In this document: one piece after another, positions 2,836-51,981 of the stretch
Numbering within the stretch: the first letter of the stretch is position 1
How the letters are laid out: every line of letters starts with the position of its first letter
Source of the DNA: Acholoe squamosa
Lineage: Eukaryota; Annelida; Polychaeta; Phyllodocida; Polynoidae
Assembly (NCBI GenBank): GCA_949317995.1
Contig: OX439043.1
Coordinates: forward strand, 4,146,501-4,210,500
Length of the DNA stretch: 64,000 nucleotides
Direction: 5' to 3'
Translations under genes and position numbers: made by a program
The notes under the pieces: model-generated
What the model saw: the letters and a program-made list of their open reading frames with translations, nothing else
What the model was told of the DNA's origin: nothing
Database searches by the model: none

Positions 2836-5800
2836 ATAAGCTTTTAACCTTGTTCCTTCCATGTAACCTCAGTATTTTGATCTTGTTCCTACCCTGTAAC
2901 CCAGTCCCCAACTCCGCATGCTGTAATGGCCATTATTATCCACTGTAAGTGAGACATCTGTTCTTGAACTGAGCTTTATGAACCAACATCAAAGAACCTG
3001 CAAGGTCCGCTTAAAAAAAAGAAAGATTTTTTTTCTATGTTTCAAAACTAATTGAGTTTAAATGTCATGTCAGCATTCCATTTAGACCTTATTCAAAGCC
3101 TAATTGAGATATTTCCTTGCTTTGCAAATACACAGAAAATGTCATAGATAACCTTAGTACTCCAGATGGGCGTCTTACAACTTAGTGTATATGGATAACG
3201 CATACCTCAACTTGGTAACTATTACATGCCCAAGTTGCTCCCGCTAGTCACTAACAGCAGTTGGCAGTCAAACAAACTTTTTAGCCCTGCAACCCAGAGA
3301 CACAGGGGACTGATATGAAATACACTAATTTCACTTTAACCTCCAGGGGCTATAACATCTACAGTTGGTTGATGGTTGGTGGTGTTACCAAAGGGCTTTT
3401 CATGATAAGACGTAAATGTACTTCAGCCCTGGGAGGGTTTGAACCACTAACCTATTGCATGCAGTGACAACTGGCAATAAGGTGGTACCACCCTAATTCA
3501 GCCACTTCCGGTAGAATAGCAAAAATACTTCCTTTGTTATTTCAAGGAATTTGGACCATTTGTGAGGAGAGAAAGGCTTAAACCCATGGTTATTTGGTCT
3601 CAAAATAATCAGAAAGTGTTTTTTTTTTAGTCCAGAGTTAATATTTTATTGATATCAAGAAAACAGTGGAGGGTTATGGGGTTGAAATGACCATATAGTT
3701 TATTCCTACACTAGTCAGGTATCACTGCACAAAATCAGTGTGGTGGTTGCCATGGCGATTTAAAAAAAAATTCGAGCCTGACTTTTATATTCTGGACCTA
3801 CTGGATAATTTTCTCCATTTCAAAAGCTAAATTTTGGTGTATTGTGCTAAGCTGTCAGGGAATTTTAAGTATTTCTAATTTTCCATCCAAGGTCGCCAAC
3901 ACTGGTATTTTCCAGTCCGCATTGGATATTTAGGGTGGCATCAGCATACAGTGACAACTGGCAATAAAATTGGAAGATGGTAGATTGCAGCTTAGAGTTG
4001 AATATCATAACTGCTCCACCTATTGTGATATGATACGGTCCATTGTACCGAACCCGTGAGCCTATGATATATGGAATCAATTAGAGAACACAGATATGGC
4101 TATGTGAACCATTCCTTGCTGGTTCTCATATGTATTAGATAAGGCTGAGCGATGAAGGAAAAAACTCATAGTCTGAAATTTTAGTGAAAGTATAAATTAA
4201 AGTCAGTGGGTTCCCGAGTCCCAACAATGATTAGGAAACAGTGAAAGATATCCTGCCCATCCGCCACATGTCTTTAAACCTCTGCACCAGGACAGCTATT
4301 GGCCATATGGTGCCAAAACTCACCACATAAATAATGATATCTCAGGCAAAATTAAAGTCTAGAGTTGTCTCATGCATTTCTGTCATCATTCATGCACTGG
4401 ATACACACTTGTAGCTTGTATATGCAGCCTTGAGATGACAGTGCAATCCTCACCAATATATTACATCACATAAATTGCACATATATTTATAGTAGCCCTT
4501 GGTAATTCAGAGAAAACCCCTAGAAGTAATTCATGGAAAATGTCATAACTTGTATAACCAAATACCTATTCACTGCCATGCAATCAGAGCATATCAAAAA
4601 TAGAGCCAGAGAATAGGAAGAGAATTTTGGTAGCATGGCATCATAATGCACATACATGGACAGACATGAACAATAGTTACAGAAAGATAGCTGACCCTCT
4701 GTCCTCTTTCATAATGGTCTTTCTTATTTAAACCATAGATTTTGGTTCTTTCCAAGTGTGCTACCTTCCCCAGATCGTACTAAACCTCACCTCCTCCCTC
4801 CCACAATGCCTACAGCAATATCCCCACCCCAAACTCTATTCTATCCACATAATTCCCTTTGACATGACTTCACCAGGAGTTCCACATCGAATTTGGCCAT
4901 GTCAAGTTATGCAATTCATCTAGATCATGGATGGATTTCAGCAAAGACAATACCCCTTTGCATGAGCATGTTCTAAGGCTTTATGACCCAGTCTGTTTTT
5001 GTGCACCTCTAACTGCTACTACCCCTCACTCTCCCCTATTGTCTTTAGCCTATGATCCATTTACACAGTTGCCTTTTCCTCTCTCACCCTGCATCACCCT
5101 GTACCCTCCGGTCCATGTTCAGGAGTTTGTTAGTTCGTCACTATCAATCTAGTGTGTGTGATATCCACAGTTCTGTGGTGGAGTTGTCCTTGTACAGAAG
5201 TTAGTTTCTATTCAACTGCTCATGATTCCATCATTCCCTGAGCAGAATTGTAAGCTCTTCATGTTTGTTATCTGTAAACCATATAAACCATAAGTACTCA
5301 TGATTTTAAGATTTAGTTGTTCCAAATCAACTTCTTGTGGCCATGTTGAAATACTGCATTATTTCTCATAGAAAACAACACATTGCCTACTCAAATTGCT
5401 GTTCTTAGATAGGTCACTTCCATTTGTTTTATGAGTTTCAGGAAGCTTATATGAATCAGCTTCACCTCTTCATTTGCAGATCCAGGTTTATTTGAAAAAA
5501 AATAGGGTGGGTCAAAATGTGACTACAATTTAAAATATTCCGATGTATACCCTAATGTATCCCCGTCAGCTCCAACTATTCTCATTCAAGTCCAATTATC
5601 CCCAAATCTACATGTTGATTTGTAGGTTCAATATATTTAGGCTGCATGTCTTTTTTTATATAAATGTTTATTAGTGTGCCAAGTATGTGAGGGTGTGATA
5701 TCAGAAAAAATAAATAAACAAAGTCAACCCCAGGTGCACATTTTCTTAAACTCAGGGTGTGCCTTATACATGGGTTGTTACAGTATATATTCCATCTCTA

Positions 5801-6422: not shown

Positions 6423-7384
6423 CCCAGCTAGCAAAGATACATTGTGCCAATGTTGGGCCAACGATAGCCAGGGTTGGACTGACGTCAGATTCCAATTTGT
6501 TTGTCTAATTTCCCATTGAGCCAACATCAGGAAACTGACGTTGGCCCAACGTTTAGCCAACCAAGATCGGGCTAAAATCTGATGTTGGTCCAATGTTAGA
6601 ATACCAATGTTAGGCCAATGTTCATTTGTCTGTCTAATTTACCATTAAGCCAACATCGCCATGTCAGTGATGTTGAGCCGTTGTCCAAAGCAAACTGTAC
6701 CAACATCTAGCCAACCTTTTTTTTCTTCTCATGTACTCTCCATTATATCATGCTAGTCTAACAAGAAAAGGCAACCACCTAATTTGATCACATCTATTTA
6801 AAGATATAGCTGTCAAGAATCATCATTTTAGAGACGGCCATTTCTTCAGTTTCACCTTATCTTAGCTGTATTAGCCAAGGAGTGATACAATGTCATTCTA
6901 TAGTTTAGACCTTAAAAAGGGTGTCCTTGTGGTGATGTTTCAAGTATTTTGTTATTTCACATAAAACTGTTGAACATTTATCATAAATACTTTAATTGAA
7001 CTTTTCTGGATTTAAAGATATCAAAAACACTCAATATAGATGCTAATCTGATGCTTATCATGACATAATTTGAAGAATCTTAGCAGGTAAAATCCCTTCA
7101 TATAGCCAACAATGCCCTCTGTTGGAGGTTGGGTACACAGTATTTTGCCAATCTTGGGCCAACGTTGTTTATTTCCTCATTAATGGAAGACCTGCCAAAG
7201 TTAATACAGTAATGAACTGCCAACGTTGGTACAACAGGAAATATCTGATGTTTGGCAGGGCACAACGTAGATTTGCCAATGTTGGTATGACATCAGACTG
7301 CCAACGTTGGGCCAATGTTGGAATATTCCTGCTGACGGTGCCGACCATTGCCAACATTGGCCAAACGTTTCCTTGCTAGCTGGG
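6423..7384. mobile_element. MITE of 962 bp with TA duplication and an internal CCAACGTTGG-type motif array
   Basis: The termini are CCCAGCTAGCAA and its complement TTGCTAGCTGGG, each flanked by TA. Beyond the termini both arms carry many variants of GCCAATGTTGGGCCAACG in both orientations (6,440-6,720 and 7,140-7,375). The middle is AT-rich and non-coding. A related copy near 39,657 lacks the element and reads straight across the TA, confirming the boundaries. The TA duplication fits Tc1/mariner-like or other TA-targeting superfamilies. The termini begin like the shorter MITE at 62,990. Confidence 0.8.
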
Positions 7385-7842
7385 TACTTTATATATAGGC
7401 CCTATAGGGTTGAACTAAATCAATAGTCTAGCAGACACTCCGGCTGTTAGTAGTGGTTAGAAATAAGCCAGGGGATAACCCAGCCTGATAGACAGTGTAG
7501 GAGCTCCTCAGTGGGCGTAGAGTCCCATCACTGCGTATAGACGAGGGGACTTGTGGTAAGTCACCAGGAGGGTGTAGGCTTTAAAAGCAGTTCTCTAAAA
7601 GTTGACAGTTTTTGTCATTAGATGATTGCTATTCTATACAAGGGTTCAATAATCAAAACACCAGGCAGCTCCAACAAGGGAAATCATGCATTTACGCTAC
7701 TATCTGTAGGCTAGTCCTGTACATAGATTTGCTATGAAGATCTTCATTATTTAAGCTGTAAAAATATTATTATTTACTGTAGAGATTGATATCATATATC
7801 TACATGTTTCATATGGTGATTCCCATGTAAGTTATGCATGTA
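7385..7842. repeat. Family I copy B, distal part
   Basis: This continues the repeat after the MITE. It matches 39,660-39,815 plus 40,200-40,300, including GTAGGAGCTCCTCAG near 7,497 and 39,766. The comparison gives an empty site for the foldback element at 39,826. No gene is seen. Confidence 0.55.
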
Positions 7843-8036
7843 TGAGTAGTCCTCGTCAACCTGTGTGAAGTGGCTTACACATGTCGCTAGATGGATCAAG
7901 ACGTCGTTATAGCACAAGATCACCAGGAATAGCAATTGCAACACACAGTGGCGAAAGATGACGGAATCAGTTATCACTCAAAAAGGAGTCACCATTGATG
8001 ACCAATCATGGCGACAGATGACGACAATTTGCTGGG
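7843..8036. mobile_element. TACCCAGCAAATTGTCGT MITE, inverted and truncated copy
   Basis: It matches the complement of the intact element at 62,990-63,215 along almost its whole length and ends in ACGACAATTTGCTGGGTA. The other terminus is lost. It is non-coding. Confidence 0.75.
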
Positions 8037-39825: not shown

Positions 39826-40198
39826 TACACTGATAAGTCTGTGGGTGTTCCGTCCCTCCACAATACAATAAGAGAACAGGGTCTGTATGTGGGTCACTCT
39901 ACCGATGGATGGACGGGAGACTGAGGGCAATACACATTCACCTTAATCTATTACTTTTAATGACCCCCTTTGATCTAGATAAGAATCTGATTGATCTAAG
40001 ATGTGTATTACAGCCATGCACCTCATTCCCCATCCCCTCCCCTCCACCCTACAGATAAGGATCTGATTGAAGTTGAATGTGTATTGGCCCTCCCTGCCCT
40101 CAGTCTCCCATCCATCCGTCGGTAGAGTGACCCACATACAGACCCTGTTCTCTGTGGGTATTGTGGAGGGACGGAACACCCACAGATTGATCAGTGTA
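39826..40198. mobile_element. Foldback MITE with 9-bp target duplication
   Basis: TACACTGAT at the left and ATCAGTGTA at the right begin arms of about 130 bp that are close to mirror copies (for example GTTCCGTCCCTCCACAATAC). The flanking AGTTGGTGG is repeated at 39,817-39,825 and 40,199-40,207. The relative at 7,551-7,580 lacks the insertion. A 9-bp duplication and long inverted repeats are typical of MULE-type elements. ORFs on the minus strand here mirror the palindrome and are not genes. Confidence 0.85.
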
Positions 40199-40298: not shown

Positions 40299-40313
40299 AT
40301 ACGGGTCAATATC
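40299..40313. repeat. Left terminus of the 10.1-kb transposon with ATAC duplication
   Basis: ATAC at 40,299-40,302 is followed by GGGTCAATATC. Two motif copies, CAAACGCCCATT and GAAACGCCCGTAAT, follow within 45 bases. The 4-bp duplication is short, so chance contributes; the paired inverted ends make the boundary credible. Confidence 0.75.
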
Positions 40314-40316
40314 CTT

Positions 40317-42460
40317 CAAACGCCCATTTCATGAAACGCCCGTAATGGAAAATAAAGGTGTCCTTTTTTCAAAACCTGTCAAATTTTCTGAAAATACATT
40401 TATTTACCTCCAAAAGACACTAAACGGGAGGATTTTGGTCCCAGCGGTTCAGTTTTTATTAACGGCAGAAGGTGGACATGTCTTTTCGAAAAAAACGTCC
40501 GTAATTTTAATTCATTTCTCATGTTCAATCACTTAACACATATCTACAACCTGCTGACCATGGCTTCTTTGGGTTCATTTTACAGTAGTCAGTTGTGGTA
40601 ATTGTTTAAATAGCTTTTAACCTTGTATCATGATTTATTTAACAGTAGGACTTCTCACAAAAAGGACAATTTCACTAGAAATTCTGAAAGTCCATGTCAT
40701 GCCAAGTATGCTGCATGAAAGTTCTTGCTGTTTCAACAAGAAGCAGTCCTTAAAAATATCTCTTTCTTATCATGAAACTCCAACTCACTATCTTTCATTT
40801 GGACCCACAATCAGGTGTAATGTTCATATTTATATCAGTCCCACACACTCTCAAAGTTGGGTTAATTAATGAATTTATATTATGGGCGTTTGTCCACGGA
40901 CCATACATTCACTAGCCATGTTCTTGTGTCACCTTGATGGCCACAGGTCCCACCAGTTATTCCTCAGACCCCCTATCTTCCACATATAGGTAGTAAACAC
41001 ATGTGGCATCATAATCTATACCCCATACCTCTTGCAAATCTCATTTTCCCTGACATCCACCCAACTTTACTAATGTTAAAAGAAAAAGTTGTAGATCCAA
41101 AATATTTTTCTTTTCCATCAATACCTAAGCCACGCAGAAGCATACACTGACTTATCATTCAAACAACTTTCAACATGTAGGTATATGTCTTTACTTTCAC
41201 TTTGACCTTAAAATTAATGGATATGGTTTGAATTAATGGAGCTCAGACTCACATATTTCATCCCATAATTAATCTTACGGACGTTTGCCCTCACTCCCTA
41301 TTTTGTAGGGATTTGACAGCTCTATCCTATGTGGCCTCCATGTCCTTCCTAATCCCCTCAGAGCTTTCATACATTAAAATGCCAAAGCAGGGACATGTGG
41401 CTGTGTCCTGCTGGCCCCAAATCAATTGTAATCAACCATTAGACCATACATTCTACATCTGAAAACCAGCTTCTCCAAAAATTATAATAATTTTGAAAAA
41501 AGTCTAAACGTGTTCCCTACCTTTAAACCTTGAACACCACTTTACATTTCATCCCCTCCCCTTATTTACTGTTTCTCTATGTACCCAGTTATATATCCTA
41601 TTAAACCCATGAACCCAAACCACCCTGCCACCAATTTTTCATTCATACATCCCCTCTCTACTCACCCACCTATTTAAATTATGGACGTTTTCTGTCGACC
41701 TCTGGCAAATTGGCCAAAGACCATGTCCTGCCACACCGCTCACAGCTCCCCTATTTCTAACTCCAAACCTTATATTCTGCCACCACTTATAAGAGACACC
41801 CTCTGCTATCCCTTCCTGTTGTTATTGACCTATACCTATCCATTTTCCTTTAAAAATTACACCCCAACTAAAACTTTTACCAAAAATTTTCCCTGTTTCA
41901 ACCATGTAGCCTGACTTAGTACTTCAACCACTGTACAGTGACGTTCCCCGGGAACCTAACATATGCCCCTACATAGACCCAAATATGTTTTTGAGTAGAA
42001 CCCCTATGCTGAAACCTCATGTAGGCCACAGAACAGGTACCCAGCAGCTGTCAAGTCAACATCCAATATTTATTACGGGCGTTTTCCGCGGACAACCACT
42101 TTTCATCATCGCCTTCCTAGCTCCCCCAAAATAGAAAAAAAAAGAATTTTTGCTTTCAGACAAGGAAAACAGTTATTCCTGTTCCTTCAGCAGAGCTGAA
42201 ACAGTTATAAAAACTAAATCATTCTGAGTAACATGTTCTGAAAGTTGTTTCAATGATCTAAGCATTCATCTCTCATCAATTACCAACCTGAATTTTCAAA
42301 TACAACTCCATGTAGCATTACCTGTTCTGGTATAGAGATCTATCATGTCCAGACCCACTGCTTCACCATTACAAAAATGCCTGAACTTACTAATGTCACT
42401 TAAATTATCACTGTAACTTCTCTTATCTAGTGTACTATAATAAAAATTACGGACGTTTGC
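40317..42460. promoter_or_regulatory. Left subterminal motif array (TTACGGGCGTTTGC-like)
   Basis: Motif copies lie at about 40,317 and 40,333 (reverse orientation), then 40,879, 41,275, 41,679, 42,072 and 42,446 in forward orientation, spaced about 400 bp apart. A further copy is at 45,682 inside the intron preceding the last exon. Forms include TTACGGGCGTTT, TTACGGACGTTTGC and TTATGGACGTTTT. They resemble the transposase-binding subterminal repeats known in several DNA transposon families. The intervening 2.6 kb is non-coding. Confidence 0.75.
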
Positions 42461-42972
42461 GTCGTTAAGCAAACATTACAAAATATCTGTGTGATATGGT
42501 TTAAAATGGTTAGTAGTCATCAACATGCAAATAAAGGTTCTTGGGGTCTGCTCTCCTCCTCTCTGGCTCCACCTGTACCTGCTTAATTAACTCTTAAACC
42601 TACAAAACCAACTGTGAACCAACTGTGTTAATTAATCAATTTTAAAAGTAGCCTTTCCTATATACAGTGTTTGAACATAAAGTTTGATATTGTCTAACAT
42701 ATATACATTTAAAATAATGGGCAAAAATCAAACACTGCATAAGGAAGGACTGATAAAGAAATTTGTCTGGCCTGTTCCTACATGCGAAGACTGGAGAGGA
42801 GGTGTGAAGACGGTGGTGCAATGTCCTTGTACTCCCCTCGGCTCACATGGGTTCGGCTGTGCAGACAGGTCAAGTCCGGTTGGTATGTACAGTTCTGTAG
42901 CCTCAAGCCCTTGCGGGCGAAGCTAGAGTCCATAGTAGTAGGTATGTGTCTCTAGACTGAGGTGTAGGTACT

Positions 42973-45900
42973 CTACTTGCTGTTGGCTCTACCTATACGC
43001 CTAGTAGGTAGCCGAGGTCTGCAGTCTACCCTGACCTGGTAAAGGGCCTGGACTGACTGAAACTCTTCATGGGTTAGCAGTAGGTTCCGGGAGCGGGCGT
43101 TGCTGTAAGGGGATGCCACAGGGCAGATGATGTCGGCCTCGGATATTTCTTCTTCATCTTTCAACTTCGGCCAGGACAACTTGATGTTCTTGTCCCAACT
43201 GCTTCCAGCTCTGAAGCCGGGTCTCAGAAAGTTAAGGTTGTAATAACCGCGGGCAAGCCTCTCGCTGGTCACTTCAGCGACATACCATGAATTCCCCCAC
43301 ACAGCTGCAACATAACTTCCACGCTCATACACTTCCTGCCGCACACAGTCATGGTGGACATCAGAGGTGTCCTCAACATAGCGAGCACCCACGTGCTCTG
43401 CAGTGTTGACTTCCTCCGGTGCTGCAGGTTGCTCAGTCTCTATCTCTTCCTCTATCTCTTCCTCTGTCTCTTCCTCTGTCTCGTCCGGGATAAGTCCGCT
43501 CTTGATGGCCTGGGCACGCGCTCGTCTAGCATCTTTCTCCGCCTCTTCCTTCTCAGCTGCATTATGGGCTAACTCTGCAGCTTCCATCTGCTCCGTCTCC
43601 AATTCACCAAGGCGTAGCATAATGTCATAGTCATATAGTAGGAACTCCTTCCACTTGGATCTTACAGGGGTGGAAGCACACTCATTGTCAAGCAGAGGGA
43701 TGTTGTTCTCTCTATCCCAGCAGCACTCGTCGAAGCACGATGTTGCACGTGTGCAGATCTTCTCCGAACGGGCAGTGACTGCTACTGAGTGTATGGTCAT
43801 GGAGCCTTCTACAGACTTTGGGGAAACAATGAAGGGCAACCGGCTGCGTGCATCATAAGTGTTCTTCATGGACATACAATCATACTGCACGGTTCCCTCT
43901 CCATCATTACAATGTTCAACAAACAGCTGGGCAGTGTAGATGTCGTTACCCTTCTTCACTTTGTAGTCCACCTTGCGTTTCGCGGCTGCACCAACGCCGT
44001 CACATGGACCTTTGCCATGATTGGTCTCGAAGTAATTCCACGTGCCGTCGAGTTGATACAGCTCATGGTGGCGACATACCAGACTGTAGATCGAGATATT
44101 CCTATACTGGGATGATGGTGAATCCGTCCAGTAGTGCACGATCTTGATGTGCGGGTAGTTCTCGATGATGTAGTTGCACACTCGCTTCATTATATGGCTG
44201 ATGGTCCCAGCGTCATGCTTGCGGTCATCGCTCACGTAGCAGAGGCACTTTGATACTGTCAGGCCGTCCTGCTTCAAGTGAATGACGACTGGGTGGACAG
44301 TGATTCCATCTTTGTTGAAAAAGACAGACTGAATCTCACCGCCCTCACCAAACCCTACTAGCCAGTTCTGGGCAAAGTCCATCTGTATCGTACAGTCTGT
44401 ATTGCCAAGCTCTTCACGCTGCTGGCGGACTTTACTGTGCTGATGTTTTGCACGGTCGGAGTGGTTCTTGGTAACGTCAAAGTCCTTGATCAGCTGTTCT
44501 ATGAAGTCAGTCTTGTCCAGGGTACAGTCCACAGGGCGCAGTCTGTTCACCCAGACAGTCTCATTTACCTTCTTGGTGGCAAGCAGCACTGGTGTAAACT
44601 GCCACTGCTTGAAGGTAATTTGATCAGGTAAGTTAGAATAAGTGTAGTCCTTGTTCAGCCTTCCGGTGTCATCTCTCAAAGCCTTCTCGAATGCTGCCTT
44701 GGTGTACTCCTTAAACAGGGAATCAGGATTGACTGGCACAAACTGGGCATAAGCGTTGATGGCCTTCAGCTTCAATGAATAGTTCTGATGGGTTTTACAG
44801 AGACAACACTCAACCTTGTGCTGCCGTAGGGGGACAATCCACTTACACTTCCTTAGCACACGAGTGAAGTGGTTGTACTGGCACTGGTACTTCGCGGGAG
44901 CACGGTCTCTGTAGGTAGCATGGATCTCCTTAACATCCATCAGTAACACACGCTTTTGCCTCACTTTCTTTACCCCGTCTGCCTCATCCTTTGCAAAGAG
45001 AGTCACCTTCTCCTTCTTCCCTGGACACAACCAAGTGAACTCACCATCCTGGACGAAGGCTATGATAAAGGCTTCAAGTTCTTTCTTATTAACTCCACGG
45101 TCGGTAATGTCCTTGTTCACATGTTTGGCTGCCTTCCCAGTGAGACCGAACTTCTTAGCCATAACAGCCATAAGTTTCTTCTCGGTGAGAACTTGTGGGT
45201 CTACTAGGCTGTGCAGGATCTTCTTCCTCTTGTTATGGCTCAAGGTCTCATTGACATGCTGGGAAATGACATCCACAGCCTGAAGGATGCGGTTGTCACT
45301 CACTGATTTCTTACGAGCTTCAGCGAGTTCAAGCTGTCTCTCCTTGCGCTCGAGTTCTGCTCGGAGAGAAGCAATTTGAGCATCAACTTCCTGCTTCTCA
45401 TGCTCAAGGGACTCAAAGTCATCAAGTTGGGTTCTGAGTCTCTTGTCATAACCTGAGCGCATCTTACGGGCGCGCCACTCGTGGATGCGAGCACACTCTG
45501 GGTGAGGGAAATGCTCCACCGAGCCTTCCTTCCCTGGTGCTTGTCGCACTTCCAGCTCCGCCTGGGGGTCGCTGGATGGTCCAGGATGAGACGCGTCACC
45601 TGCGCTGTCGGGTTTGTTATGGCCACTGAAAGAATAAATTTTTTATGCAACAAGAATGAAAATAAAGAAACACTAATATAAATTACGGGCGTTTGCGCGC
45701 GTACTTCAAAACATTGAATTAAGAGTGATTAAGTTAATGAATTCACATAAATGTGAGATATTGAAACACTATCTATGTTCAGATGAATTGATTTGGTGTG
45801 ACTAATTTATAAAGATGCCCACGATGCTCCAATGAAGTGCTGGTGACACTGCTAGCTCCAGCACTTCATTGGTGCATCGTGACGACCAATCATTTTTCAA

Positions 45901-48446
45901 CTTACCATGGTGTTGGCGAAGACATGCGGGCAGACTGCCGTGGAGCTGGCGCTACTGGTGTCGAGCGGGATCGCTTCTCTGTCATGATAACCATGCTGCT
46001 TAGCGCCCTCAGCTCTTTCATAGCTGGTCTCCGCGGAGTCGTCTTGCCATCGTTCAAGTCACTATCAAATTATATTCAATTTGTCACTTATTCTATACAA
46101 AAGACACAAACTCACAGAAAAAATGAATTAATTTAAATTTAAAGAAACCTTTATTTACTTGTTATATAGATCTATTTCACAGAACTTGTCTTATGTACAA
46201 TGAGGACATTTATGTTACATGATAACTTTCAAATAAATCTAGGACTTCCATTATGTATTTGTATGTACATGTTGGTCTAGTTGTCTTCGTCGGTTGAAGA
46301 GACTGAAGAGATGGTTATTGGACTCCAGATAGGCACGGTTGAGTACAAAACGGGGGGGAGGTCTTCCACAGCAGAACTGCCAACAAGAACAATTGAACAA
46401 ATGTAAGAAAAGAAGATAGATTGCCGCTAAACATTGACCATAATAAAAATTAGGACAGATCTGGAAAAACACTTACTTTTCGGTGGCGGGTTTTGCGGCT
46501 GGTGGCACCACTGGCCTTCGGATCACCAACTCCCGTGTGGCAGGCGCCACAGCTCCACGGCCCTCCCTTCCGGGTGGTGTGAGGCAAAGGGGGCGACGAG
46601 AGGTGCTACAAGAAAAAGGTGAGTCTGTAAAGTAACTATTTTTTTATTTCAGATTTCTGGAATACCTGAAATACACCCTTCTTCTTTTATTATTTACTGA
46701 AGTATCTATTGCAAAAAAAAATAGTATATACGGGAGTAGGAGTACTTACTTTGGGGTGGTAGTATCCTGCTGTTTCTCCTGCGTTGAGTCCTCATTCGTC
46801 AAGTCCTCCTGGGCCGTCTCCACCTGGGGCGTCTCCTCGACCTGCAGGGCGGCTCCTGCTGCTGCACTGGCTGCGGTACGCCTCTTCCTCCTGGTAGGGA
46901 GTATGAAATAAAGTTATTGTCAGTGAATTGGGATACAGGCCATCATAGTATATATATACATGTACATACATGTAGAGTAGGAGTACTTACTTTGGGGTGG
47001 TAGTCTCCTGCTGTTTCTCCTGCGTTGAGTCCTCCTTCGTCAAGTCCTCCTGGGCCGTCTCCACCTGGGGCGTCTCCTCGACCTGCAGGGCGGCTCGTGC
47101 TGCTCTGGCTGCGGTACGCCTCTTCCTCCTGGTAGGGAGTATGAAATAAAGTTATTGTCAGTGAATTGGGATACAGGCCATCATAGTATATATATACATG
47201 TACATGTACATGTAGAGTAGGAGTACTTACTTTGGGGTGGTAGTCTCCTGCTGTTTCTCCTGCGTTGAGTCCTCCTTCGTCAAGTCCTCCTGGGCCGTCT
47301 CCACCTGGGGCGTCTCCTCGACCTGCAGGGCGGCTCGTGCTGCTCTGGCTGCGGTACGCCTCTTCCTCCTGGTTAGGAGTATGAAATAAAGTTATTGTCA
47401 ATGAATTGGGATAGAAGCCATCATACATATACAGAGGTACATTTACATGTATACATATATATATATGGGAGTAGGAGTACTTACTTTGGGGTGGCCTTGA
47501 CAGCAGACTTAGGGCGGCTCGGCTCAGCTGAAGCATATACTGCTTTGCGGGTCTCATCCGAAACCTTCATAAACAGTAGAATAAGATCAATATTACGAAA
47601 GAAAGACAAGGTAAGTGACAATAATCAAAAAATTATAACATACAGCAAAGTTGTTTTTGAATTGTGAATGTTCTTAAACATTTGTCCATGAGATGAAGAT
47701 TCAATATGAATTCATGAAATAACATACAATATACATTCATTTAATTTTACAACATCTATAGATAGAAAGTGGGGAAAATGAATAATTCTTTTCTTGAAAC
47801 TGATACTCACTACTAGAGATCTACGCTGCTGGGGTGCGGCATCCTCGGTCTGCTGGGGTGCCTCATCGGTCTGCTGGGGTGCCTCATCGGTCTGCTGGGG
47901 TGCCTCATCGGTCTGCTGGGGTGCCTCATCGGTCTGCTGGGGTGCCTCATCGGTCTGCTGGGGTGCCTCATCGGTCTGCTGGGGTGCCTCATCGGTCTCC
48001 TGGTGTGTCTTGTCCTCCGTTGCCTTGGGTGCATGCTCCTTGGTGGACTGCTCGGGGGCCGCTTGGACCTGGCCGGGTGCCTTAAACTTCCCCCTACCCC
48101 CATGGCCTTGAGATCTCTTCTCCAGATGAGGAGGGAGAGGGGAGTTGGGGTTCTGTTTTAGAAAATTTCTCCTTTCGCGGTCTAATTTACCACGGGCTGA
48201 CGACAACTCTCTCTCCCTTTGCTTCTTTTTAAAAGCTTCTGATCCTTCACCCCCTGCCTCGGCCGCTTCTTTCAGTTCTCTACGCTTTTTTACCGAGCGT
48301 TCGGCATCTTTTTCTAGTTTTTTGGCATATTCATCTGGGTCTTCCTGAACTTTGTCTCGATGCCTCTGGGCACATTCTTTCCCGGACATCTTGTCGTCAC
48401 CCTTGGATGGCCTACCTACACTCTTCCTTCCTTGATCGTCAGACAT
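42973..48446 (-). CDS. Candidate transposase gene, 8 coding exons, 1,356 aa (long form)
   Basis: Minus-strand exons by GT-AG reading: 48,446-47,811; 47,564-47,485; 47,368-47,231; 47,128-46,991; 46,890-46,750; 46,605-46,477; 46,061-45,906; 45,625-42,973. Donors are mostly GTAAGT, and every junction keeps frame. Exon 1 encodes a basic helical N-terminus (CAQRHRDKVQEDPDEYAKKL) and DEAPQQT repeats. Exons 3-5 are copies of one acidic/basic module. The last exon encodes a coiled coil, a Cys/His cluster (KVECCLCKTHQN) and DFAQNW, WTDSPSSQYRN and NHGKGPCDG motifs. The first two Asp (about 889 and 974) look like DDE-type catalytic residues. A Glu-rich stretch and an SH3/Tudor-like tail (YVAAVWGNSWYVAEV) follow. 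Similar uncharacterised proteins occur in fish, cnidarians and molluscs as I recall, unchecked. The function as transposase is inferred from the core motifs and the flanking termini. Confidence 0.78.
45821..45880. repeat. Hairpin in the last intron of the transposase gene
   Basis: Arms at 45,821-45,843 and 45,858-45,880 (core CCAATGAAGTGCTGG and CCAGCACTTCATTGG) pair nearly perfectly around a 14-base loop. On the transcribed strand it starts about 25 bases after the donor at 45,905, so it could influence splicing between exons 7 and 8. Confidence 0.85.
46277..46376 (-). CDS. Alternative terminal exon giving a 453-aa short form
   Basis: The acceptor TTGTTGGCAG precedes a 100-base stretch that starts in the same phase as exon 7 (one base completes the codon left by exon 6) and encodes 32 residues before a stop (SAVEDLPPVLYST... 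ending STDEDN). AATAAA lies on the minus strand near 46,150. Joined to exons 1-6 it would give 453 aa, with the basic N-terminus and repeated modules but no DDE-like core. Phase agreement and a downstream poly-A signal support a real alternative 3' end. There is no transcript evidence. Confidence 0.6.
46750..47368 (-). repeat. Triplicated exon-intron unit
   Basis: Three tandem units of about 240 bp each contain an exon (138, 138 and 141 bp) with its splice sites and intron. The two units nearest the gene start are almost identical in their exons; the third has one extra codon and a few changes. Each exon encodes a KRRTAARAA basic start and an acidic/Gln tail ending TTTPK. Exon lengths are multiples of three, so copy number can change without breaking frame. 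Confidence 0.88.
47836..48003 (-). repeat. 21-bp minisatellite in exon 1
   Basis: Eight units encode DEAPQQT, followed by a degenerate TEDAAPQQ. Units are nearly identical at the DNA level, indicating recent expansion or homogenisation. Frame is preserved. Confidence 0.9.
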
Positions 48447-50411
48447 TCTTCTGTTAGAGAAAAGAAAAGAGAGAAAGTTTGTTAAAAGGAACGCCCGCAA
48501 ACGCCCGTAATATTAATTCGAAAATAAAGTGGCAATGGGATTCTGCAAAAATGCCAGTTTAAAAGACACAACAGAGGTGCATCTTCACCCCTGATATCAA
48601 GTCCCTATCTACATTTTTTCCCCTGTCAACAGAGGATTTTCTATTATGCTTACGGGCGTTTGCCGAGAGAAACGCCCGTAATTGTAATTAAAATTGTACT
48701 TTACACTAAGAGAGTAAGGGAGGAAATAGTCCATTTTGGGCAAGAACAAAGTACATCAGTAGGCCTAACTTTGGACATATAGAACAGGTGGGCAGGATAT
48801 GGCTGATAAGAGAAATGCACAAATCTATGTCAGCGACAAACGCCCACAAACGCCCATAATCAATATCACCACATGGTCTCCAGAGTGAAATGGAGGGGTG
48901 TAAAAGCAGTTTCTTCATAGAAATTTCAGAACTAGGTGTAAGAAGGGGGTCAGGGGAAGGACAGGAGGGCTAAAAAATAAGATTTCAGAGAATAATGACT
49001 TTCACATATATCTTTTTGTGAGCTAAGTGTACTGTTTCGGACAAGAAAATGGTTTTTGAAGGTGAAAACATACTTCATATGACATTAAAAATGATCCAAA
49101 GAGGCAGGGGAGAATAAAGGAGATTGTTTTCTAACATAAAATGGAAGTTCATTGATGTTAGGGGCACACCTTTACATAGTATAGGTCCACGACATAAATG
49201 TAAACAACAACCGAAACTTTACGGGCGTTTGTGGGCGTTCGCGAACGCCCGTAAGATATATTACGTCACATTCTGGAACGTCGTGGAAATGGTCTTAGCA
49301 GACACGCGGGCACGTCCCTGCCTCTTTTAAAATGTTCCTAAAGAACTAATTCATCGATTAAACACACAATTTTTACAGCCAGGTTGATCTATGGTCCGAA
49401 AAGTATGCCCCTAACATACAGAGATACACGAAATCTTACCTTTGGTCAAGTTTGCAGCTAGATTTTCACTTCTGAAGACAACCCAGTAGGACTCCAAGGA
49501 TGAAAGATGGCGGCCGCGTCATCGGCTCACCCTCCGCCAGGAACCAGCTCAGCTAGTACCGAACGCCGGCTGTAGGGGTCCCCGAGAATTCCCGCCACTA
49601 TAAAACTTATGGGCGTTCGGATAGGCAAACGCCTGGCAAACGCCCTACATCGACTCGATGTATATTCGAGGGTAAAGAAGAGGGAGAGGGTTCAGGGAGG
49701 GTAAGAACTGTTCTGTAGGAGAGATTTTAGTCTAGGGTACACTTCTCCACAGGTTAGAAAGACGTAGGTGTGGTTTTAATGGGAGATATTGCCACTTCTT
49801 TAATTTCGTTTGGACAAACGCCCGTAAGCAAAACTATTTTATGAAACTCTCCCAACACACATTTTCATGGGAAAGAGTGGCGATGGGGGTCTGTTTATTA
49901 GTTAAATGGGCAGTAAATGAAGGGAACTACTTTCCCAAAGAAGAAAAATGGATATAGGGGTACTAGTCTCTGACCAGAAGTACCTGGGAAGGGCAGGTTG
50001 GACCTCCCCGACAGATGTGGTATGTTTCGGTATATGAAGCCCACTTGGTGGGTATTACAGATAGAGGGTCAAAATTAGCTTGAGGCCCAAGACTTCATGC
50101 TATGGGCTAAAAAGGAGAAAAAATACCTGTGGCTATCCATGTCACATTTATTGGAGACAGTTCATTGACATTTCAGTGTAAAAAGAGGAAAAAACACCTT
50201 TTCTCCGACTTTCAAGCTGATTTCTGCAGCATAATTAAATATAAATAACGTAAAACTATACATTTTTATAGCCCCCCATATGTTAACAGTACATCAGGTA
50301 TAAGAAACAATAGATAGAACTCATTGGTACTACCCCAGGGCTGTGTGAATGGGACAAGTACCCAAACGCCCGTAATATAAATCAAAATGGACGTTCGGTA
50401 GATATTGACCC
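48447..50411. promoter_or_regulatory. Right subterminal region with motif array and presumed promoter
   Basis: Non-coding flank upstream of the transposase gene. Motif copies, mostly as AAACGCCCGTAA and often paired head to head, lie near 48,490 (two), 48,650-48,684 (an inverted pair), 48,838 (two), 49,219-49,255 (inverted cluster), 49,607-49,647, 49,813 and 50,362. A weaker GGACGTTCGG lies 10 bases from the terminus. The density is higher than on the left. Short ORFs here look accidental. Confidence 0.72.
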
Positions 50412-51981
50412 ATACACATTGAATCATCTGTGTAAAGTGACTAGCTCATTCAAGACAAAAGCTGTATCCACCAGCAGATGGACAGTCTGGGTGGAAATTA
50501 CCGTTGCTTGTCATTGAGATCAAAGTGACTTCTATGAGGAATGACAAAAGAAGAGTCTCCATGACCTTTTCCCTCCCCTCTAGCCCATACCCTACTCAGC
50601 ATGCTGTAATGATCATTGCTGGTAAAGGATATGTGTCTCTTTCTGTTTCCATGGTTCATAGACCAACAGAAATCAAGGATGCTAGTCTGGTCTGCTCCGG
50701 AATGATGACTCTAGGTCGGTTATTTCAACCCTCGAACCAGATTGATTTAAATGTTTAGTCAAAATAATTGCGTCATTTGGTTTTCATAGAGATGGTTCCA
50801 GCTTCATGCTGTTAAAATCCCCTGTAACTCAACATATAAAATTGTTGTTTATAGACAAGAGATCTTGGCAGTACAAAAATGGTAAAAGAAGGTACCCCTA
50901 TCGCTTATCAGCAGTTGGCAGTCAAAGATTTTTCGCCGCAGTAGTTTTTACTTTAGATACACAAGGGACTCATAAGAAATACAGGAGTATCAGTAAAACC
51001 TCCAGAGACTATCATATTTGTACAGTAGTTGGGTGCTGGCATAGTACTCGTCATGAAGACTGCATCTCATGATAGGACAAAAGTGTGCTTAAGCCCTGTA
51101 AGGATTTCAACCACTGAAGGACATTTTTATAGCCCCCCATATGTTAACAGTACATCAGGTATAAGAAACAATAGATAGAACTCATTGGTACTACCCCAGG
51201 GCTGTGTGAATGGGACAAGTACCCAAACGCCCGTAATATAAATCAAAATGGACGTTCGGTAGATATTGACCCATACACATTGAATCATCTGTGTAAAGTG
51301 ACTAGCTCATTCAAGACAAAAGCTGTATCCACCAGCAGATGGACAGTCTGGGTGGAAATTACCGTTGCTTGTCATTGAGATCAAAGTGACTTCTATGAGG
51401 AATGACAAAAGAAGAGTCTCCATGACCTTTTCCCTCCCCTCTAGCCCATACCCTACTCAGCATGCTGTAATGATCATTGCTGGTAAAGGATATGTGTCTC
51501 TTTCTGTTTCCATGGTTCATAGACCAACAGAAATCAAGGATGCTAGTCTGGTCTGCTCCGGAATGATGACTCTAGGTCGGTTATTTCAACCCTCGAACCA
51601 GATTGATTTAAATGTTTAGTCAAAATAATTGCGTCATTTGGTTTTCATAGAGATGGTTCCAGCTTCATGCTGTTAAAATCCCCTGTAACTCAACATATAA
51701 AATTGTTGTTTATAGACAAGAGATCTTGGCAGTACAAAAATGGTAAAAGAAGGTACCCCTATCGCTTATCAGCAGTTGGCAGTCAAAGATTTTTCGCCGC
51801 AGTAGTTTTTACTTTAGATACACAAGGGACTCATAAGAAATACAGGAGTATCAGTAAAACCTCCAGAGACTATCATATTTGTACAGTAGTTGGGTGCTGG
51901 CATAGTACTCGTCATGAAGACTGCATCTCATGATAGGACAAAAGTGTGCTTAAGCCCTGTAAGGATTTCAACCACTGAAGG
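50260..51981. repeat. Perfect 861-bp tandem duplication across the transposon right end
   Basis: 50,260-51,120 and 51,121-51,981 are identical as read. The duplicated unit holds the last 150 bases of the transposon, including its terminus and one motif copy, plus about 710 bases of family I flank. ACATTT lies at the start of each unit and again just after the second, so it could be the microhomology used. ORF pairs in it are just the duplication. Confidence 0.95.

Follow-up and report, generated by a model that had tools for sequence, protein, structure and literature searches.

Sola transposons carry a DDD transposase and duplicate 4 bp of their target; the part of PMC10741241 that deals with them gives terminal repeats of 11–1124 bp and a length of mostly 2–9 kb, sometimes more than 15 kb, and the corresponding part of PMC3627910 lists AT-rich AWWT duplications for Sola2. 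Here we describe family A, an element of 10,109 bp with a multi-exon gene, which was found in a 64,000-nucleotide stretch of the genome of the polychaete Acholoe squamosa (GCA_949317995.1, contig OX439043.1, positions 4,146,501 to 4,210,500; this whole stretch is called the window). It shares with Sola1–3 the 4-bp duplications, a predicted DDD transposase, terminal repeats of a kind that can be short and a size of several kb, and it differs in arrays of a short motif, triplicated exons and a C-terminal barrel, which the sections on Sola in both papers (PMC10741241, PMC3627910) do not mention.

Several transposase sites per end are known from two other systems. In the inverted repeat/direct repeat (IR/DR) ends of Sleeping Beauty (Tc1/mariner), multiple sites are required for ordered synapsis according to the sections of PMC7827188 on this element, which has four sites, ends of ~220 bp and TA duplications, whereas family A and its four relatives, families B–E, have 13–20 putative sites over kilobases and 4-bp duplications. 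In Galileo (P-element superfamily) several transposase sites were located by footprint or electrophoretic mobility shift assay, two of them within direct repeats of the long terminal repeat, but the binding data of PMC3688188 concern three sites within ~0.72 kb of the end and a protein with a THAP domain; the word 'nucleosome' is absent from the main text of this paper. As for the protein, retroviral integrases, Mos1, Metnase and IstA share the predicted fold of the catalytic core, but with 5–14% identity in the alignments listed and no link by sequence search. Among open-licence papers, judged by title and the start of the abstract, we found none on nucleosome-spaced transposase sites or on family A.

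Our analysis indicates that family A is very probably an autonomous and recently active DDE/D cut-and-paste transposon, which encodes a transposase of 1,356 amino acids and inserts with a 4-bp stagger, preferably at YATATR-like sites. Real transposon ends can now be assigned to a multicopy group of proteins that lacks a name in Pfam, and numerous intact, near-identical copies are available for tests. As a mobile element, family A is of a known kind, with measurements that resemble those published for Sola; the main new result is the family-specific motifs at nucleosome-like spacing in A and four relatives. If this spacing is functional, it would be a natural case of transposon ends evolved around nucleosomes, and with several families having different motifs in one layout the assembly of a transposase on chromatin would become directly testable.

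Ends, copies and target sites of family A

A preliminary description of the stretch had proposed a DNA transposon with paired perfect 11-bp ends and ATAC on both sides, and the following positions proved correct to the base.

40299..40302, without strand: left target-site duplication ATAC, read from the sequence
40303..50411, without strand: complete transposon of family A, 10,109 bp, with both ends present in 28 of 29 near-identical copies
40303..40329, plus strand: left terminal inverted repeat, 11 bp perfect, ~27 bp imperfect
50385..50411, minus strand: right terminal inverted repeat
50412..50415, without strand: right target-site duplication ATAC, read from the sequence

The terminal letters are GGGTCAATATC on the left and GATATTGACCC on the right (complement), forming an inverted repeat that is perfect over 11 bp and imperfect to ~27 bp. 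Using both 300-bp ends as queries against the genome (1.48 Gb, with the window on its contig 9), we obtained at least 41 matches for the first 300 bp (best 40 of 110 candidates scored) and at least 40 for the last 300 bp (best 40 of 99), which excludes the case, considered in the preliminary description, that no second copy exists. The listed matches of the first 300 bp comprise 30 at 98–100% identity, nine at 85–89% and two that are pieces of one interrupted copy, and 40 of the 41 start at query base 1–7; all matches of the last 300 bp extend to base 300.

From the 31 near-identical copies found with the first 300 bp we examined 29 including the window (C5:37648869 and C13:11067742 were left out) and scored both ends as present at no more than 2 mismatches across the terminal 40 bp. 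This holds for all copies with the exception of C9:75087012, and exact 4-bp duplications flank 25 of the 28 copies with both ends, the remaining three differing by one base, which bears out the assignment as a DNA transposon. Two of the 25 exact duplications sit in (AT)n and are uninformative because the surrounding DNA is (AT)n itself. Among the 18 copies tested, no duplication reaches 5 bp; when their flanks were paired at random 10,000 times, there were on average 1.6 matches and never more than 7 in 18. The target sites are biased to Y-ATAT-R. A more distant copy of 8,436 bp is flanked by an AAGG duplication. The internally deleted relative of family A at L086 567–3184 measures 2,618 bp, is flanked by ATTT on both sides and matches the motif close to either end; it was not used as evidence, as the deletion may post-date the insertion. 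That the gene belongs to a host gene family was rejected, as its copies bear termini and target duplications.

Empty sites, which had been suggested as a check, were sought with the joined flanks of six insertions (best 40 of 2,757 candidates scored), and junction-spanning matches were obtained for two of them. For the insertion at C9:78679487 all three fetched paralogous repeat copies (L116–L118, 91–93% identical) run uninterrupted across the target with a single ATAA. On the opposing side stand the other four joined sites, which have no counterpart among the matches listed, and the insertion at C14:55561424: here all three fetched paralogues carry 8 additional bases where the flanks meet, which makes this site no clean empty-site test. 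Directly outside the left transposon end, at 39861–40170, a foldback-like inverted-repeat sequence was seen by eye.

The gene, its predicted transposase and superfamily placement

Between the ends lies one coherent multi-exon gene, as had been proposed. Its 8 exons, separated by 7 introns that are bounded by GT and AG, together hold 1,356 codons and no internal stops; the splice sites were read from the sequence.

47811..48446, minus strand: exon 1, basic N terminus and a 21-bp coding tandem repeat
47485..47564, minus strand: exon 2
47231..47368, minus strand: exon 3, copy one of the triplicated exon
46991..47128, minus strand: exon 4, copy two of the triplicated exon
46750..46890, minus strand: exon 5, copy three of the triplicated exon
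46477..46605, minus strand: exon 6
45906..46061, minus strand: exon 7
42973..45625, minus strand: exon 8, predicted to encode a helical region (possibly helix-turn-helix), a core of RNase H/integrase fold and a C-terminal beta barrel (maybe Tudor- or chromo-like)
43714..44517, minus strand: catalytic core, modelled alone, residues 345–612 of an 858-aa reading frame, with D391, D476 and D517

Exons 3–5 are copies of one exon: a unit of 240 bp, present 2.9 times in tandem at 46734–47425, triplicates it in frame, its introns included. The last intron holds a short inverted repeat at 45820–45881 with arms of ~24 bp and one mismatch by eye.

The motifs DFAQNW, TDSPSSQ and HGKGPCDG, regarded earlier as the mark of an RNase-H-fold transposase, all lie in the last exon, and for its core an RNase H/integrase fold with a D391–D476–D517 triad is indeed predicted, these residues being conserved and positioned as in RNase H folds according to alignment and structure prediction. 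The chemistry of cleavage and joining would follow from fold and residues, and the duplications are observed directly. A protein search with the alignment found 23 proteins, like the first one (P0024 and P0025 were gained, P0020 and P0023 lost); among these 23 members there is no consistent or convincing Pfam family, and a sequence search of the PDB gave no relative. Pattern scans gave 7 matches in a prokaryote genome collection and 12 in IMG/VR, with no confirmed relative in either. Some structural results tell against the transposase assignment: Foldseek found no match at E ≤ 0.001 among solved structures in two scans, where the top rows above this threshold were herpesvirus terminase nuclease, RNases H, NurA and SPARTA, and none at E ≤ 0.001 among viral structures, and of the 50 rows that VIA-align ranked best for the core, 5 belong to argonaute-type proteins and not to transposases. 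In 20 fetched copies the last exon matches at 98.9–99.6% in 19 (three shortened by fetch limits) and is open across 889–918 codons with identical C-terminal residues in nine, which together argues for recent activity.

The preliminary description had seen a possible new superfamily or family. The DNA transposon stands, with the protein family tied to termini that enclose its gene between 4-bp duplications, and the new superfamily is the less probable part of this proposal; duplication, triad, 11-bp repeat and size fit the published features of Sola. We see about even chances that family A is a divergent ordinary member of Sola1, 2 or 3: it shows the 4-bp duplication (25 of 28 copies of A, and eight of nine further copies of B with both ends), a DDD-type triad by alignment and structure prediction, a perfect terminal repeat of 11 bp and a length of 10,109 bp that lie within the Sola ranges, and AT-rich AWWT duplications are described for Sola2 in the part of PMC3627910 cited above. 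Against this, the relevant passage of PMC4455052 defines the superfamilies of Repbase through convergence of transposase sequences and the likeness here is one of description, and the motif arrays are absent from the Sola sections cited above (PMC10741241, PMC3627910). As measurements and not sequences were matched to Sola, we do not file family A there. Somewhat unlikely is a separate superfamily or deep DDE/D lineage, which the missing Pfam family and PDB relative, the pattern scans and the absence of all six motif strings from the open-licence papers searched would favour; this absence is weak, as the libraries contain no named transposon protein collection. In the general sense of a DDE/D transposase of RNase H fold, a predicted fold with three carboxylates, defined ends and duplications are all present.

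PiggyBac and Kolobok elements have TTAA duplications, and both were rejected since TTAA is absent among the duplications listed. The Zisupton (KDZ) group has 8-bp duplications and the CMC/Transib group a C(2)C motif between the second D and the last acidic residue, according to the respective entries in PMC12730594; the former was rejected because of the 4-bp duplications, which never reach 5 bp in the tested copies, and the latter because no CxxC occurs in the D476–D517 interval. Ginger, whose protein is highly similar to Gypsy integrase according to the part of PMC10741241 on this group, was rejected because comparison with Pfam, allowing E values up to 1, gave no integrase family.

Motif arrays in five related families

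In both non-coding arms of family A we found copies of AAACGCCCGTAAT.

40334..42458, without strand: gene-3' side array of this motif with no more than 3 mismatches, at 40334+, 40493+, 40879−, 41274−, 41678−, 42072− and 42446−
45682..45694, minus strand: lone motif copy in the last intron
48489..50376, without strand: gene-5' side array, 12 sites in 7 clusters

These are 20 copies at no more than 3 mismatches, against an expectation of 1.6 (the average over 20 sequences from a first-order Markov model, of which none had more than 4), and the remaining 53.9 kb of the window hold 9, which is about the chance rate. Each of the families A–E has its own motif of 12–14 bp in 13–20 copies per element; at no more than 2 mismatches there are 13 copies of AACGTCCGGTAC in B, 13 of TTACTCCGATAG in C, 13 of GTGACCAACGCTGA in D and 16 of TTACTCCCTGCTC in E. 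The sites are spaced at 150–195 bp or a small multiple thereof, in mixed orientations in the gene-5' arm, where their offsets in bases from the gene-5' end are as follows (close pairs in A merged).

Family A: 41, 589, 783, 1174, 1562, 1745, 1911
Family B: 401, 576, 753, 1129, 1303, 1479, 1657
Family C: 401, 579, 758, 1141, 1507, 1675, 1835
Family D: 569, 735, 1120, 1483, 1651
Family E: 399, 576, 746, 1128, 1491, 1659, 1809

Between B, C and D, gene-5' sites that correspond differ by no more than 28 bp. Counted from the gene-3' end, all five families have one site at 193–197 and another at 552–583, and A and D have one extra site each in mid-element.

When any period from 140 to 230 bp was allowed, the regularity of the two arms of A was reached by 89 and 36 of 5000 random placements, that of the 5' arm of B by none and that of the 5' arm of C by 36. 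When the 5' arms of A–D were pooled on a common phase counted from the end (n = 26), the result was 0 of 5000 at a best period of 183 bp, and with E included (n = 33) again 0 of 5000 at 181.5 bp. The DNA between the sites is barely alike: its mean local score exceeds that of shuffled segments by 0.7–1.4 in the 5' arms of A–D and by 1.8 in the 3' arm of A, with single pairs scoring up to 31 and 38, respectively, and a tandem control in family C scored 623 versus 21. As the non-coding DNA of A, B, C and D moreover aligns only in short scraps, the spacing seems to be longer-lived than the sequence. C and E align across long stretches of non-coding DNA and are therefore counted as one lineage.

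How such ends might work can be outlined as follows. The predicted core with D391, D476 and D517 would cut at the GGGTCAATATC ends and join these, staggered by 4 bp, to target sites that are preferably YATATR-like. An N-terminal part of the protein would bind the family-specific motif of 12–14 bp, which we consider rather probable. With repeats at a spacing of one or two nucleosomes in both non-coding arms, the sites could come to lie in one linker after another once the element is packed into chromatin, and the C-terminal barrel may contact histones there; we put this forward tentatively. Many transposase molecules would then mark and synapse the long chromatin-packed arms ahead of cleavage. 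A transposon end can require several sites, as the Sleeping Beauty data of PMC7827188 show, or be bound at several, as the Galileo data of PMC3688188 show, both at a smaller scale. A transposon lineage with chromatin-organised ends, that is with putative sites in linkers along arms of kilobase length, a DNA-binding N terminus, a histone-reading barrel and phased assembly before cutting, is conceivable, if doubtful, and with the same reserve the motif sequence would vary between its families and the spacing be retained. A GC content of 0.369 beside the sites versus 0.398 at a distance of 66–100 bp (Wilcoxon p 0.039; 0.002 by jittered positions) is a weak hint at linkers.

We regard it as unlikely that the regular spacing is a functionless relic of an ancient tandem duplication. 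Families B–E do carry tandem units of ~360–382 bp with one motif each on their gene-3' arm, and in the gene-3' arm of A motifs of the same orientation follow every 374–404 bp, as such a relic would have it. This explanation is opposed by the mixed orientations and the barely related inter-site DNA of the gene-5' arm, by the offsets of B, C and D, which agree within 28 bp (A drifting to ~94 bp) though non-coding DNA aligns in scraps, and by the motif of family B, whose 12 bp are perfect at 13 of 13 sites among unrelated flanks in the gene-5' arm. It is quite improbable that a regulatory factor of the host, be it an insulator or a transcription factor, binds in place of the transposase, as motifs lying mostly in non-coding arms could position nucleosomes or drive transcription but differ in sequence among families within one genome, which fits family-specific transposases better than one shared host factor.

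Several observations count against chromatin-organised ends. The motif of family A required the relaxed definition of up to 3 mismatches, the spacing is loose with intervals from 150 to 195 bp, and the GC dip is as weak as said. The offsets of A drift outwards relative to B, C and D, by 20 bp at the first site and ~94 bp at the far end, which slightly lessens the case for a kept layout without removing it. The pooled test assumes independent families, an assumption that holds no further than the divergence of their DNA. In L044, a decayed copy of the 89% class, motif positions are hardly better kept, at 185/214 (86.4%), than other non-coding positions, at 3159/3735 (84.6%). Finally, an old duplication may have fixed the spacing, since B–E bear the tandem units of ~360–382 bp on one arm.

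Sister families B–E

The core protein matched at least 146 places in the genome (best 143 of 1,337 candidates scored), 30 of them at 97–100% and others being decayed relatives. Several further families are 43–47% identical to A in the core, with many open copies of equal score among the matches listed, and four were analysed, namely B (L094 and L088), C (L090), D (L092) and E (L093). The duplication data are better for B and weak for C, D and E. Family B (C1:31897417–31905712) has terminal repeats that span 29 bp and differ at 2 positions, and an ATAA duplication; nine of ten further copies have both ends, and eight of these nine have exact 4-bp duplications, two of which lie in AT-repeat-like DNA, the ninth showing ATGT/ATAT. 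Family D (9,215 bp, 15-bp repeat) has an ATAT duplication inside (AT)n in one copy, and in a second copy the right end was looked for and not found. Family E, with ends resembling those of C, was seen in one copy with an ACAT duplication inside (ACAT)n.

Family C has a length of 8,046 bp and a perfect 16-bp repeat, and L090 shows the duplication TACT within a CTACTG-like repeat. Seven further copies were inspected by predicted place: one has both ends (ATAT), one altered terminal bases, two one end and three neither, and L091 is without the outer 5' part present in L090. In the gene-3' arms, units of ~382 bp were noticed in L088 from ~6134 (family B) and of ~370 bp in L090 at 6431–7928 (family C). 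The end of family C at L090:8230–8479 matches at least 14 places of equal score at 86% identity among the matches listed, which suggests that these places represent one more recently amplified family.

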